Below are positions 20,145 through 36,255 of a stretch of 36,255 bases of DNA, in pieces (position 1 is the first letter of the stretch; every line of letters begins with the position of its first letter). The DNA comes from a virus. The notes below the pieces were generated by a model that was not told the origin of the DNA, did no database searches, and worked only from the letters and a program-made list of their open reading frames with translations. The translations under genes and the position numbers were made by a program. The stretch covers positions 1 to 36,255 of IMG/VR virus record IMGVR_UViG_3300009130_000074. The stretch is one strand, 5' to 3'.

Positions 20145-20696
20145 AAGTTGTGTTACTTACTGGAGGCTTAGGCCGACGAAGGGCTAGAGTATGGTAGTTG
20201 TTATCTTTCTCCTATAAGGGCAAACTGTACAAGGGAAGCTAGAAAAGATAACAGTGTTTGTTAAGAGCCTGCAAAGACAAACACATTTTAATTAACCAAA
20301 GAAAAGAGATTGCTAAGGAGTCCAAGTGTTTGCAACACAAACTTGGTAAAAGCAACCTAATATGAAAACTTTTAGCGGAGTTAGTAATATTGCCTGTTTT
20401 AAAGTAGGGCGTTAAGGTTAATGCATAACTGTTGTATAGCAATATAAGGTCAAGATAGTTTACTATCTTAAGTGGGTGCAATTCCCACTCTTTTCACCAA
20501 AAGTATAGTACCACAAATGTGTAATAGCACCCAGCAAGTGCTAAATTACGTGGCTTTATGTTTTTTAACATAAAAGGGTTCGAAACCCTACAGAGGTACA
20601 TTGCTAGAAGAATACATGAATAAAACAACCTATTTTAGGATTGTATTCTTTGACAACACTTGATTAGTAGAGGTACTATGATAGTGTTGTTTTTTA
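20078..20696 (+). ncRNA. Large structured noncoding RNA candidate A
   Basis: About 620 nt without a real gene, made of ordered helices: TACCATACTCT/AGAGTATGGTA (20078-20088, 20186-20196); GTTATCTTT/AAAGATAAC (20200-20208, 20244-20252); GTGTTTG/CAAACAC (20254-20260, 20278-20284); TAATATTGC/GCAATATA (20385-20393, 20439-20446); AAGATAG/CTATCTT; GTGGG/CCCAC; CCAC...GTGG with inner GTAAT/ATTAC and AGCAC/GTGCT; TTTATGTT/AACATAAA (20555-20574); AGGGTTCGAAACCCT, a tRNA T-arm-like hairpin; and closing GTACC/GGTAC. It ends in an intrinsic terminator: ACAACACT (20653-20660) with AGTGTTGT (20683-20690) then a T run. Size and ornate form recall phage-borne GOLLD and ROOL RNAs, but I cannot assign it to either. 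Confidence 0.6.
20653..20696 (+). terminator. Intrinsic terminator of RNA candidate A
   Basis: ACAACACT / AGTGTTGT, 8-bp stem with a 22-nt loop, followed by six T. It marks the likely 3' end of the structured RNA. Confidence 0.75.
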
Positions 20697-32001: not shown

Positions 32002-33036
32002 ATGGTGTTATTTGGTGGATTAGATGGATTAGTATCTCTTAACAAAGAAGAAATTCTTAAAAGAGTAAGTCAACAGGATATATTTCTTATAGTTTTTGAA
32101 ACTGTTGATATTGGTAAATACTATATTAATCCATTAAGAGAAGATTCTACTCCAGGATGTTTCTTCAATTGGCACAACAACAAACTTTGGTTTTGTGATT
32201 TTGCTGATGATAAAGTCTCAAGAGACTGCTTTGAAATGATTAAAGATTATTACAACCTGAATTTTTATCAGGTATTGGAATATATCAATGACCATTTTAA
32301 ATTGGGATTAAGTCATGGAGAAGTTCCTATCCCTGTTTCAAAAGAGATTATTACACAACCTGTAGTAGAAAAACCTAAAAACTATATAACATACCAAGCT
32401 AAAAGTTTTGACAAACATCATAAATCCTATTGGACTAAATATCAAATTACCAAACAACAGTTGCTTTCTGACAATATCTATCCTACAATATGGTATAGAT
32501 TCTGGTCAAGCAAAAAACAAAATTGGGTAATAATAAGACCAATGGCAAGTGATGTTACTTATTCCATTAATCAATGGGATGATGCTGTTAAAATTTGTAG
32601 AGCTAAACACAAAGGTATAGGTAAGTGGATTACCAATTGTACAAAGAATCATATTGGAGGTTTAGACAAACTTTCTTTTGCAGGAGAGAAGTTAATAATT
32701 ACCAAATCCTATAAGGATTGGAGAGTATTAACTAATAATGGACTGTCCTGTATATGGTTTCAAAATGAAGGAATGTTTCCTGATAAAGACAAATTAGATG
32801 CTATCACTTCTACTTATAAAAAAGTAGTAATATGGTTTGATAATGACTCTACAGGAATAAAAGCTTCTAATAAACTTTGTCAACTAGCGTCAAAATATCA
32901 TAAAGATGTTAGTAAAGTTCACTTACCAATAAGATGTCTTAAGAAAGGCATCAAAGATCCTGCTGATGCTATCAGCAAGGATAATCTATTTTTTCACAAT
33001 TTTCTAAAAACAAATTTATTATGGAAAGAGAAATAA
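32002..33036 (+). CDS. DnaG-type TOPRIM primase
   Basis: 344 aa from the ATG at 32002. Makes RNA primers for the phage replisome. The N-terminal part has YINPLREDSTPGCFFNWHNN, then KLWFCDFADD, the fold of the primase zinc-binding domain but without its cysteine ligands. A middle region leads to the TOPRIM domain (about 225-300): KLIITKSYKDWRVLTNNGLS, WFQNEG, and VVIWFDNDSTGIKASNK with the metal-binding D280/D282 pair. In the first motif the usual Glu is Lys (K235 in TKS); the TKSYKD form recurs in related phage primases as I know them. Its last 16 nt overlap the next gene. Confidence 0.85.
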   Translation: MVLFGGLDGLVSLNKEEILKRVSQQDIFLIVFETVDIGKYYINPLREDSTPGCFFNWHNNKLWFCDFADDKVSRDCFEMIKDYYNLNFYQVLEYINDHFKLGLSHGEVPIPVSKEIITQPVVEKPKNYITYQAKSFDKHHKSYWTKYQITKQQLLSDNIYPTIWYRFWSSKKQNWVIIRPMASDVTYSINQWDDAVKICRAKHKGIGKWITNCTKNHIGGLDKLSFAGEKLIITKSYKDWRVLTNNGLSCIWFQNEGMFPDKDKLDAITSTYKKVVIWFDNDSTGIKASNKLCQLASKYHKDVSKVHLPIRCLKKGIKDPADAISKDNLFFHNFLKTNLLWKEK

Positions 33037-33782
33037 AAATATTCTCAACCCTTACAAGAAAAAGATTAAATTCATCTGCCACTACATGGTCAGAACTTCA
33101 GGCTGAACTAAAAAATGAGTCTATAAAGTTTGAAAACATGAAAGCAGCAGTAGGTAAATCAAAAATCTCTTTAGAATATCCGGGAGCACAATTACCTTCT
33201 GAACCTTTTACTCTATATCTTATGCCTACTAAAACTAAAAGTGGCTTAGATGTAGAGAACATGTCTTATTCTGAAATCAGAGCAGCAATAAGACAGTTGG
33301 TAACAACCAGTGAAAATGCTCATAATCATTTTAATGATGAGAAAAATTACACTAACAAGAAAGCTGATGAACTGAGAAGCCTTTTGGCTTCTTGGTTAAA
33401 TTCAGTTAACTCTCTTAAACAAGAGAAAGAAGAGGTAATAGAGAAAGAAGAATCATTTAGAGAAAAATTAGGGCATAAAAATGCTCAAGCTTTTGTAACA
33501 GCAATTATTGATGATTACAAAAGAGAAGATGGTCTTACTCAAGTTGTTACTGATGAAACTTTTCTTTCATATATCATAGGTCAGTTGAAAAATTTCTCAA
33601 CAGATAAAGACCATGTTGCTGATGCTTTAAGAAATGCTATTTCAGTATTACAGGATGCATTAGAAGATTGGACTGAAGAAGAAAAGGAGTTTGAAGAATT
33701 GATGGCAGTTGCAAATCACGAAAATGATGAAGATGACTATGAAGATTATGATGAAGATTATGATGATGAAGGACCCTACTAA
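33021..33782 (+). CDS. Ubiquitin-like beta-grasp protein with helical and acidic extension (253 aa)
   Basis: 253 aa from the ATG at 33021, overlapping the primase by 16 nt. Residues ~3-75 read as a beta-grasp: strands EIKIFSTLTRKRLNSSAT, helix TWSELQAELKNESI, loop KFENMKAAVG, strands SKISLEYPGAQLP and PFTLYLMPTKTKSG. The order beta-beta-alpha-beta-beta and the LPxxPFTLYLMP strand resemble ubiquitin-like proteins of phage and PRTRC-type systems. The domain ends ...KTKSG75 and is followed by a helical coiled region (~80-225) and a tail of almost only Asp, Glu and Tyr. Followed by genes for E2-like, JAB and E1-like proteins, so it is the probable modifier. The SG at 74-75 may be where a peptidase frees the domain. 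Fold call is by eye. Confidence 0.7.
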   Translation: MEREIKIFSTLTRKRLNSSATTWSELQAELKNESIKFENMKAAVGKSKISLEYPGAQLPSEPFTLYLMPTKTKSGLDVENMSYSEIRAAIRQLVTTSENAHNHFNDEKNYTNKKADELRSLLASWLNSVNSLKQEKEEVIEKEESFREKLGHKNAQAFVTAIIDDYKREDGLTQVVTDETFLSYIIGQLKNFSTDKDHVADALRNAISVLQDALEDWTEEEKEFEELMAVANHENDEDDYEDYDEDYDDEGPY

Positions 33783-33806
33783 AAAATTTTATTTTAACCT
33801 ATAAAG

Positions 33807-33838
33807 AGCTTGGTTTTAATTAATCAAGCTTTTTTTTT
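33807..33838 (+). terminator. Intrinsic terminator after the ubiquitin-like gene
   Basis: AGCTTGGTT (33807-33815) pairs with AATCAAGCT (33822-33830), 9 bp with one G-U pair, followed by eight or more T. It stands between the ubiquitin-like gene and the E2-like gene and would keep the latter at a lower level unless it has its own promoter. Confidence 0.8.
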
Positions 33839-33850
33839 AACTCTAAAAAG

Positions 33851-34921
33851 ATGAGAGAAAATGAGCTTTATGAAAAAGCAGTTGATTCTATCAACAAAAC
33901 AGAGTGGTACAGAGATGAAAAATTCTTAAGCAAATTGCCAAAGAGAGGATTTAATGAAGAGTGTGTTAAAATTTTAAAATCAATGGTTGAAGAATTAACT
34001 GATATCTTTGAAGATAAATTTCACTTAGAAATAGTAATAGAATCTGTAAATTATTTTAGTATTTATTCATTTAAGTTATTTATTCATTATCCTAAATTAA
34101 CTATTATAAACGAAGATGGTCAAAGTATAAAATTAACTAACCATTTTCAACGAGTAGTAATTCATATTGGTACAAGTTATTGTAGTATAAATCACGAAAT
34201 GAGTTGTATAACAGTAAATCCTACTGCTCAACAATTTGTAAGAGGATATAACCATTCACATACTTCCAGTAGAAGTTATTACAATAATGAGTTCAAAAGA
34301 TTTTGTTTAGGAAGTAATACTGAATTTGGTAAATTACTTGGGCAATTTACCAATAACCCATATGATGCAGATATATTTCATATGTTCTGTATAAATCTTA
34401 TTACTATGGCTGAAACAGAATCTTTAGCAGGGAAACCTCATATAAGATTAGCTGCTGTAGCAATTAGTGGAGATTTATCTTCTGATAGAATAAGACATTT
34501 TCTAATAGAAGGGTATATGAACAAGTATAAAGATTCGTATGCTCTAAAAGCTGTTGATTGGAAAGTAACTTCAGGAGTATTAGAAGTTATTGATAATGAA
34601 AAACTTGAACAGCATTGTCTTATTTTTGAACACAATGTTGATGAATATCACAACATTGGAGGCATCATAGTATGCAAAGATTCTGTTGGAAATTATTATA
34701 GATATACTGATGATAACAATACATCAGAATACAATATTGAATCTATAGATTGGCATATCCAATTTAAAGATAAACAATATAAATTTGGTTTGGCAGATGG
34801 TGCCATTTTAAAACCTGAAACATTTTTTATTCATCCACAAATTAAGAAACATGTCAAAAAACATTTGGAAGAAAAAGCAAACATCAAGCTTATCAAAGAA
34901 AGTATTACCACCAAAGCCTAA
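33851..34921 (+). CDS. E2-like (ubiquitin-conjugating-type) protein, 356 aa
   Basis: 356 aa from the ATG at 33851. The N-terminal ~60 residues are helical. Residues ~60-200 have the order of an E2/UBC-type fold: strands (FHLEIVIESVNYFSIYSFKL; FIHYPKLTI), then ITVNPTAQQFVRGYNHSHTS with H135 and H137, then FKRFCLGS with C152, then a helix with ETESLAGKPHI. The pairing of an HSH segment with a following CLG is that of prokaryotic E2-like families, in which the Cys carries the modifier as a thioester. The C-terminal ~130 residues are a separate beta-rich domain. It overlaps the JAB gene by 71 nt. Its setting with ubiquitin-like, JAB and E1-like genes supports the call. Confidence 0.65.
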   Translation: MRENELYEKAVDSINKTEWYRDEKFLSKLPKRGFNEECVKILKSMVEELTDIFEDKFHLEIVIESVNYFSIYSFKLFIHYPKLTIINEDGQSIKLTNHFQRVVIHIGTSYCSINHEMSCITVNPTAQQFVRGYNHSHTSSRSYYNNEFKRFCLGSNTEFGKLLGQFTNNPYDADIFHMFCINLITMAETESLAGKPHIRLAAVAISGDLSSDRIRHFLIEGYMNKYKDSYALKAVDWKVTSGVLEVIDNEKLEQHCLIFEHNVDEYHNIGGIIVCKDSVGNYYRYTDDNNTSEYNIESIDWHIQFKDKQYKFGLADGAILKPETFFIHPQIKKHVKKHLEEKANIKLIKESITTKA

Positions 34922-35999
34922 TTTAAAAGTTATTGAAAAAAAGGTTAATGTTCCTGTAATAATTTCAGAAGAGATACTTAATAAAATAAAATATCTCTGT
35001 ATGGAAATACCTAAAGTAGAATGGTCAGGAGTATTGTTCTACAAGGTTATAGGTAGTATTACTAAACCTGCTGGCTTTGAATGTATAATTACAGATATAC
35101 TACCTATGGATATGGGTAGTAAAACATACACAGAATATCAATTTGATCAGACTGTAGCTGATTATATTGAACAAGATGATGAAAGATTTGACTGGAAAAT
35201 AGGACATATTCATAGCCATAATACTATGAAAACCTATTTTTCAGGAACAGATATGTCAGAATTAAATGACAATTCTGAATTTCACAACTACTATCTATCC
35301 TTGATTGTTAATAATTTTATGGATATGACTGCAAAGATTGCTTATAGAGCCACTACAGAAGGTTTTTCTTATACAGCAATAGATGAGAATGGTAATAACT
35401 ATTCTAAAAAACTTCACCTACCACAGACTTATCTGATAATACACAATTGTACTATTGAATCTCCTACTGAAGAAATTAGCATTTCCAAAGAATTTGCTGA
35501 TAGAGTAGCATATATCAAGAAACCTAAGAAAGTTGCCAAAAGAATAGGATTTAGTTCTATTGATATTGGTGCTGACTGGGATATTGATAAAGATCTTTTA
35601 GGTATTAAAGATAATCAACTTAGTTTGGATATTGAAAAAATTTCAGACCATTTTGATTTTACCAAATGCTTATTAAGATTAGGAACAAAAGTTTCAGGGG
35701 ATTCTGTAGAAGGTGCTATTGATGATTTGTATTCTCAAATTGGTGGAGAAGAACAAGGTATACAAGCTGTTAAACAAATGGCAGAAGAATATGAAGATTT
35801 GTTTGATTACTTTTTCCAGGGGAAATATGAATATTATTCTCAAGACAGCCTTGAAATTTTGCAGAAAGTTCTTAAAATTCTACAAGAATATGCTGATTTG
35901 TGGTCTGAAGAAGAAGATAACGAAGATCCTGTTTGGATATTAATTAACCTTTTAAAAGAAAAACACAATGAAATTGAGTACTATCAGTCAGAGATTTGA
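34851..35999 (+). CDS. JAB/JAMM (MPN+) metallopeptidase, deubiquitinase-like, 382 aa
   Basis: 382 aa from the ATG at 34851, 71 nt inside the E2-like gene. The JAB fold covers ~30-185. The zinc site is complete: Glu57 in VEWSGVLFY, then GHIHSHNTMKTYFSGTD with His121, His123, Ser131 and Asp134, matching ExnHxHx7SxxD. Such enzymes cut after the C-terminal Gly of ubiquitin-like proteins, to mature them or to free them from targets. The C-terminal ~190 residues are a helical, acidic region (EEQGIQAVKQMAEEYEDLFD) of unknown use. Start: the first ATG after the overlap; the basic N-terminal 30 residues are not needed for the fold. Confidence 0.85.
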   Translation: MSKNIWKKKQTSSLSKKVLPPKPNLKVIEKKVNVPVIISEEILNKIKYLCMEIPKVEWSGVLFYKVIGSITKPAGFECIITDILPMDMGSKTYTEYQFDQTVADYIEQDDERFDWKIGHIHSHNTMKTYFSGTDMSELNDNSEFHNYYLSLIVNNFMDMTAKIAYRATTEGFSYTAIDENGNNYSKKLHLPQTYLIIHNCTIESPTEEISISKEFADRVAYIKKPKKVAKRIGFSSIDIGADWDIDKDLLGIKDNQLSLDIEKISDHFDFTKCLLRLGTKVSGDSVEGAIDDLYSQIGGEEQGIQAVKQMAEEYEDLFDYFFQGKYEYYSQDSLEILQKVLKILQEYADLWSEEEDNEDPVWILINLLKEKHNEIEYYQSEI

Positions 36000-36255
36000 T
36001 AGATTTTCTGATGCAATTTGGTTTACACTGGCTAAAGATACCAAAACACTCATAGGAGGGTGTGGAGGTATTGGTAGCTGGTTATCTTTGTTTCTATCAA
36101 GAGTAGGATGTGTTCCTTTAATATTTGACTTTGATAGTGTTGAACAACACAATATTGGAGGACAATTATTTAAGACATCTCATTCTGAAAAAGCAAAGGT
36201 AGATGCTATTTCTGAAGTAATTCAGGAATTTACAGGAGACAATAATTTTCATATT
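35968..36255 (+). CDS. E1/ThiF-type adenylating enzyme (partial, C-terminus outside window)
   Basis: First 96 residues of a gene cut by the right edge; ATG at 35968, 32 nt inside the JAB gene. Residues 28-37 are LIGGCGGIGS, the nucleotide-binding loop of the E1 / ThiF / MoeB family, followed by WLSLFLSRVG, strand PLIFDFDSVE with D54/D56, then the HNIGGQLF motif (in most family members N-x-x-R-Q; here the Arg is Gly, as in some phage and PRTRC-type ThiF proteins), then K75/K77. E1 enzymes adenylate the C-terminal Gly of the ubiquitin-like protein and pass it on. The catalytic Cys region lies beyond the window. Confidence 0.85.
   Translation, partial: MKLSTISQRFDRFSDAIWFTLAKDTKTLIGGCGGIGSWLSLFLSRVGCVPLIFDFDSVEQHNIGGQLFKTSHSEKAKVDAISEVIQEFTGDNNFHI

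Follow-up and report, generated by a model that had tools for sequence, protein, structure and literature searches.

Putative ubiquitin-like conjugation and deconjugation genes in the replication block of crAss-like phages

The closest described relatives of the genes reported here are the PRTRC loci of plasmids (Iyer type 6d; TIGR03735/03736-type proteins), which follow the order ParB-E-C-F-B-A-ThiF (L171, L172, L173, L174, and L179 for the C-B-A-ThiF order). Conjugating (E2) proteins of type 6d have no His before their Cys and one after it (PMC1779556). The Bil operon (BilABCD) gathers a modifier, an E2, a JAB peptidase, and an activating (E1) enzyme; BilA has two ubiquitin-like domains, BilB a CEHH motif, and BilD an inactive and an active adenylation domain (PMC11354881). 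E1, E2, and JAB chemistry is also found in the Cap2/Cap3 genes of type II cyclic-oligonucleotide-based anti-phage signalling systems (CBASS) and in E1-E2 fusion operons (Iyer types 6a-6b). Among phages, lambda and T1 encode the ubiquitin-like protein TAPI and the JAB protein TAPK, with a predicted cleavage at Gly (PMC1779556). Here, we describe four consecutive genes from IMG/VR virus record IMGVR_UViG_3300009130_000074, whose complete stretch of 36,255 nucleotides is referred to as the window. With a probability of roughly three in four, these genes encode a pathway of the PRTRC/type 6d kind that is self-contained for ubiquitin-like conjugation and deconjugation and lies within the replication-recombination block of a phage.

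Four linked genes and their relatives

As a sequence-only reading of this DNA had proposed, the four open reading frames lie one after another on the + strand. The first (33021..33782) encodes a ubiquitin-like modifier precursor of 253 aa (phrog_15560; homologue crAss001 gp79). It is followed by an E2-like protein of 356 aa (33851..34921; phrog_15310; crAss001 gp78), a JAB/JAMM metalloprotease of 382 aa (34851..35999; crAss001 gp77), and the N-terminal 96 aa of a minimal, ThiF/UBA5-like E1 (35968..36255). The E1 is incomplete because the IMG/VR record itself stops at 36255. In crAss001, the four products are annotated as hypothetical, hypothetical, metalloprotease domain, and thiamine biosynthesis protein ThiF.

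Searches with tblastn, using JAB and E1 as queries, retrieved Steigviridae (crAss001, DAC15, cr106_1, cr111_1, and cr128_1) and Fipvunavirus (FpV4 and Fpv1) genomes; 74 phage records matched JAB and 74 matched E1. IMG/VR scans each used 80 sequences at most, as for the JAB relatives, of which 439 were found and 80 taken. A first set of 90 loci comprised the window, its own copy L001, 8 annotated phages, and 80 contigs. Modifier, E2, JAB, and E1 occurred in this exact order and on one strand in 74/90 of them, the exceptions being mostly contig ends or genes that were split or carried introns. Of the 60 loci in a second set, which was seeded with E1, 48 had complete quartets, four had a split JAB, and six had E1 alone; two of these six are jumbo phages and the rest are cut near the end of the contig or locus. 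We also compared the window with a near relative, the IMG/VR contig L010 (identities of 88% for JAB, 93% for the modifier, and 94% for E2). The ratio of non-synonymous to synonymous substitution rates (dN/dS) was about 0.18 for the modifier domain, 0.36 for its tail, 0.33 for E2, 0.37 for JAB, and about 0.06 for the E1 fragment (96 codons with only 5 differences). Every gene is thus below 1 in dN/dS. The fixed order and strand indicate that the grouping is not due to chance. Residue counts given below derive from 91 non-redundant loci, aligned out of 117 complete ones.

A full set in a crAss-like phage had been expected to be notable, which is right, but the module proved general in its group: every Steigviridae or Fipvunavirus record examined carries it, including crAss001 and DAC15. 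Meanwhile, E1, JAB, and E2 were undetected in one Intestiviridae, one Crevaviridae, and two Suoliviridae genomes at a sensitivity where crAss001 and FpV4 were positive. Outside phages, narrow peptide patterns, which can miss relatives, were scanned against 84,980 bacterial and archaeal genomes. Those of E1 gave no match, and those of JAB found only L167, a 6.8-kb contig of a metagenome-assembled genome with the same four genes. Searching plasmids for the phage E1 returned distant ThiF proteins only, and no PRTRC E1 was found in one further plasmid examined.

Components of the putative pathway

The sequence-only reading took the whole first gene as a beta-grasp modifier. This holds for residues 1-75 (33021..33245, +), which end in K73-S74-G75, while the remainder of the 253 aa is a helical tail. 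The AlphaFold model has strands at 3-9 and 13-18, a helix at 23-32, and strands at 40-44 and 63-69, with a predicted local distance difference test (pLDDT) of 94-97 over most of residues 1-70; the linker at about 71-80 is less certain and leads into helices. Fold searches against the PDB returned mainly ubiquitin and ubiquitin-like proteins (probabilities of at most 1.00 and target TM-scores of at most 0.69). Their E-values all exceeded 0.001, probably through dilution of the query by the 178-aa tail. On the strength of the predicted structure, the fold search, and conservation, we are confident in assigning residues 1-75 to a beta-grasp domain with a flexible C-terminal Gly. Pfam and NCBIfam offered no credible family for this protein, and a PDB sequence search with its profile found nothing relevant. 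A match to FAA_hydro_N_2 (5.9e-5) was rejected, as it falls below the cut-off and lies in the tail.

Gly75 is invariant (91/91) and S74 is kept in 89/91; the domain end reads (K/R/A/S)-S-G with rare exceptions. The protein always runs on past this Gly, with tails of 2-217 aa (median 133) whose conservation is far below that of the domain (mean majority fractions of 0.21 and 0.52, respectively). In the window, the tail of 178 aa (33246..33779, +) is predicted to be removed by a cut after Gly75, between 33245 and 33246. Two relatives mark the boundary between domain and tail naturally. The modifier of L077 ends in KSGEVV, i.e. with a 3-aa tail. That of cr106_1 (L004:5426-6629) ends in KSGKF; next come a gene for an HNH endonuclease and then a separate, tail-like open reading frame that matches the modifier-family profile. 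A group I intron was considered as the cause of the cr106_1 split and rejected, given that no intron model matched. An invariant Gly that is always followed by a variable tail suggests that JAB probably trims the precursor and thereby frees Gly75.

The zinc site predicted for the protease was recovered exactly. Residues E57, H121, H123, S131, and D134 are present in 91/91 loci and conform to the JAMM signature E...HxHx7Sx2D as E57...H121-S-H123-x7-S131-x2-D134. All eight JAB members scanned matched Prok-JAB (best 1.1e-6). The sole NCBIfam match was PRTRC_A, in 6/8 members, and an hhalign comparison with the PRTRC JAB yielded 4e-6. PDB relatives were CSN5, archaeal JAMM1, and an Rpn11-like protein, with weak E-values. 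An archaeal enzyme of this family, CsRpn11, is reported to process a ubiquitin precursor (PMC6043591), a precedent for the proposed trimming.

The E1 fragment of the window displays the expected GGCGGIGS, DFDSVE, and HNIGGQ motifs and matches Pfam ThiF above the cut-off (E=1.2e-11). The complete homologue of L010 (8450-9166, 239 aa) provides the remainder, with R12, K77, D116, R144, and C182. In L010 numbering, R12, D56, N62, K77, D116, R121, D142, R144, and C182 are invariant (91/91), and the family carries the superfamily features GxGGxGS, D-x-D, N..Q, K, and DNxxxR. A separate catalytic and thiolation domain had been anticipated beyond the contig end. This did not hold, as complete relatives have an E1 of a single domain and of UBA5/ThiF size, mostly about 225-250 aa long, in which one Cys is invariant. 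UBA5, the E1 of UFM1 in eukaryotes, is a minimal E1 that holds its catalytic Cys within the adenylation domain. It is the best PDB relative (1.4e-11), in a match that covers the adenylation half only, and it has Arg where the phage E1 has Gly; MccB and eukaryotic E1 subunits were also retrieved. The E1 assignment therefore stands, with the reservation that the Arg canonical for NxxRQ is missing from HNIGGQ.

The E2-like protein, with its candidate catalytic C152 (codon 34304-34306), was modelled at a pLDDT of 84 and a predicted template modelling score of 0.82. A helix at 36-53 precedes several strands, after which come the region of HSH and Cys and further helices, the same order as in ubiquitin-conjugating (UBC) folds. 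The best 17 PDB fold matches were all of the Ubc9, UbcH7, or ubiquitin E2 variant (UEV)/Mms2 types, at Foldseek E-values of at least 0.095. The E2 assignment thus survives in topology and in the identity of its best matches, and the model is suggestive of a UBC fold. As in E2 proteins, the candidate Cys follows the strands and is preceded by a His, and S136, H137, C152, G154, and E190 are all invariant (91/91). Strong matches in BFVD were unannotated viral proteins, several of them crAss-like. Pfam and NCBIfam gave no family match, and a PDB sequence search with the E2-like profile returned nothing relevant. Pfam PF14460 (Prok-E2_D) did not match the window, a result that is uninformative because the control was also silent. 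As side observations, L063:8155-10071 encodes an enlarged E2-like protein of 639 aa, and L077:8034-10143 has two adjacent E2-like open reading frames.

Kinship with PRTRC and comparison with other systems

A relationship to both PRTRC and Bil had been suggested. For PRTRC it is borne out by the gene order, E1, and JAB. The plasmid order C-(F)-B-A-ThiF is collinear with modifier-E2-JAB-E1 of the phages, and the JAB signatures resemble each other (HSH...FFSxTD). Both E1 proteins are single-domain and compare at 1e-16 in hhalign, with C182 of L010 aligned to the invariant C195 of PRTRC ThiF; TIGR03736 matches E1 in 7/8 members. At the domain end of both modifiers, a Lys is closely followed by a Gly, and both modules neighbour replication or partition genes. 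The profile of the E2-like protein aligns with that of PRTRC protein B in one segment only, at the Cys (FCLGS to VCTGN), in a weak match below significance.

There are also differences. The curated NCBIfam cut-offs for PRTRC are not reached, since the window JAB scores 11.9 bits against 101.8, and the E1 cut-off of 144.75 bits is beyond the phage proteins, whose best E-value is 1.8e-10. No PRTRC model for ParB, E, or F matched the neighbour proteins scanned in the phage loci, and the modifier and E2 genes have nothing F-like between them. In PRTRC B, the aligned C172 is followed by H201, whereas in the phage protein H137 precedes C152, so the type 6d layout does not apply. PRTRC E1 has Arg65 and D-x-G-N where the phage E1 has Gly65 and DGR. 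PRTRC protein C usually ends at its Gly, often as TKG, and is tailed in 2/9 cases (by 5 and about 60 aa), both in loci with JAB (protein A), which is in line with maturation by JAB. Lastly, PRTRC resides on plasmids, unlike this module, which is found on phages and has a tailed modifier. Judging from these sequence comparisons, the module is related to PRTRC/type 6d and would work like it, yet it is a phage-specific variant and not a member.

Other systems share less with these genes. Bil has the same kind of parts in one operon, and the suggested kinship goes no further. The phage set has one ubiquitin-like domain and a single-domain E1, and the invariant Glu that follows the E2 Cys lies 38 residues past it, unlike in the CEHH motif of BilB. 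In contrast to Cap2/Cap3 and the fusion operons, the phage genes are unfused, with a separate modifier, and no CD-NTase was recognised in the gene block. TAPI/TAPK likewise combine a ubiquitin-like domain with JAB, but as a tail-assembly pair without E1 or E2.

Proposed pathway and rival explanations

Taken together, the components suggest the following pathway. The modifier would be made as a tailed precursor, and the JAMM protease would cut it after Gly75. The minimal E1 would then use ATP to adenylate Gly75 and form a thioester, with the counterpart of L010 Cys182 as the probable site. From there, the modifier would pass to Cys152 of the E2-like protein and onto an amine, most likely a lysine, of phage or host proteins, and the same JAMM protease would take the tag off. 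Each chemical step, the direction of transfer, and the targets are our inference from the gene set. To judge from location only, such tagging may regulate the phage replication-recombination machinery or host proteins taken over by the phage. Conjugation is our best reading of these sequences, since both a JAMM enzyme and an E2-like protein with its Cys are retained in the set and all key residues are invariant.

Several observations weigh against this reading. No E3 was recognised. The Arg of NxxRQ is absent, with Gly65 in 47/47 E1 proteins of quartet-bearing phages (and in 91/91 non-redundant loci) against Arg65 in 10/10 PRTRC proteins; hence, ATP handling must differ or be impaired. R144 might conceivably substitute for the missing residue. 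The fold match of the E2-like protein is weak, and its profile comparison with PRTRC B was not significant (0.16). Neither were two hhalign alignments of the modifier with PRTRC C. In addition, some tail-less PRTRC modifiers also accompany JAB, so the presence of JAB alone is no proof of processing.

The same chemistry might instead be directed mainly at host immunity, by tagging or disabling immune proteins or by disturbing the Bil or CBASS conjugation of the host. Bacterial E1/E2/JAB systems do function in anti-phage defence (PMC10097602), and the E1-E2 and JAB models of PADLOC match the phage E1 and JAB weakly. We nevertheless regard counter-defence as unlikely. In nearly all loci the module sits in a conserved primase-Sak4-exonuclease block, not in a variable accessory region, and it is kept across phages with different hosts (Bacteroides and Flavobacterium). 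The upstream neighbours include a primase in 54/55 loci, a Sak4-like gene in 51/55, and a DnaB-like helicase in 48/55, and an exonuclease lies downstream in 44/55.

A sulfur-carrier role is still less probable. Under it, JAB would free Gly75 of a ThiS/MoaD-like modifier, and E1 would form a thiocarboxylate from which sulfur passes to a metabolite, tRNA, or DNA. The best NCBIfam matches of E1 are indeed ThiF models (1.1e-20), and public records name it a thiamine biosynthesis protein. Nevertheless, an E2-like protein with an invariant Cys is always in the set, no sulfurtransferase and no thiazole or molybdopterin gene was recognised among the neighbours scanned, and the modifier ends in K-S-G instead of G-G, the usual end of sulfur-carrier proteins. 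Finally, JAB and modifier could form a protease-controlled switch whose active product is the freed tail, with E1 and E2 reduced to scaffolds, a scheme compatible with the missing ATP-contacting Arg and the separate tail-like gene of cr106_1 but very hard to credit when every other active-site residue of E1 and E2 is kept in 91/91 loci, the E1 fragment is under the strongest purifying selection, and the tail is the least conserved part, nearly absent in L077.

Returning to conjugation, a further case bears on the maturation of the modifier. Xanthomonas phage PhiXhv-15 and Erwinia phage Ep032, jumbo phages of about 228 kb that are near-identical at this locus, also carry this type of E1 (E 5e-26; L237:2817-6696 and L238), between DNA ligase and topoisomerase genes. 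The D-G-R motif is common to this E1 and that of the quartet phages, and is not found in PRTRC. The gene adjoins those for a 141-aa, tail-less protein ending in -ASGG and for an 892-aa Cys-rich protein with ...HPH...CLG..., which by eye is like the E2 motif. A search for JAB in these phages detected none, and patterns from their own E1 found no relatives in IMG/VR. If confirmed, the joint absence of tail and JAB is what the maturation idea predicts, for one phage pair and as judged from motifs.

We lean, by a narrow preference, towards a broader view in which a tagging and untagging pathway with a protease-matured modifier is a core, replication-linked part of Steigviridae, Fipvunavirus, and many environmental relatives, working in replication rather than defence, with a JAB-less relative in jumbo phages. 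If true, this would to our knowledge be the first full E1-E2-modifier-protease set known in viruses of bacteria. A literature search combining crAss with ThiF or ubiquitin found nothing relevant; its coverage was partial and preprints were excluded, so an earlier description is possible. As one set, the four crAss001 genes predict a ubiquitin-like pathway that widespread gut phages would supply themselves. Because crAss001, DAC15, and FpV4 have cultured hosts, the function of a PRTRC-type module becomes testable. In proteomic data, a Ser-Gly remnant (+144.05 Da) would be expected on lysine after trypsin digestion.

Genomic setting and minor observations

Directly upstream of the module, and outside it, lies a DNA primase gene (32002..33036, +) that overlaps the modifier gene by 16 nt. 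Other window genes encode a portal, large terminase, major head protein, DNA polymerase, DnaB-like helicase, and Sak4-like protein, a content that fits the crAss-like label given earlier to this DNA. The E2-like and JAB reading frames overlap by 71 nt (34851..34921, +, from the first JAB ATG to the E2 stop). This overlap is kept in 90/91 relatives (median of 80 nt, from the first JAB ATG), which suggests that some of this DNA may serve both reading frames.

Group I introns (Rfam RF00028) were found within or flanking the JAB, E2, or E1 genes of several relatives (L026:12120-12400, L214:3513-3759, L198:4307-4519, L204:2261-2492, and L184:3663-3922), which suggests that the module genes are conserved enough for homing. 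The JAB gene of Fpv1 (L003:8288-9283) is split by an opposite-strand endonuclease gene, with no match to the group I intron model, and is intact in FpV4. Directly 3' of E1 in FpV4 lies a phrog_15446 gene (L002:9870-10958) with relatives in 30/55 loci, whose position is occupied by gp75 in crAss001. It is a candidate fifth component, without a Pfam or NCBIfam match. ARAGORN predicted a 98-nt tRNA-Tyr with anticodon ata midway along the window (20402-20499).

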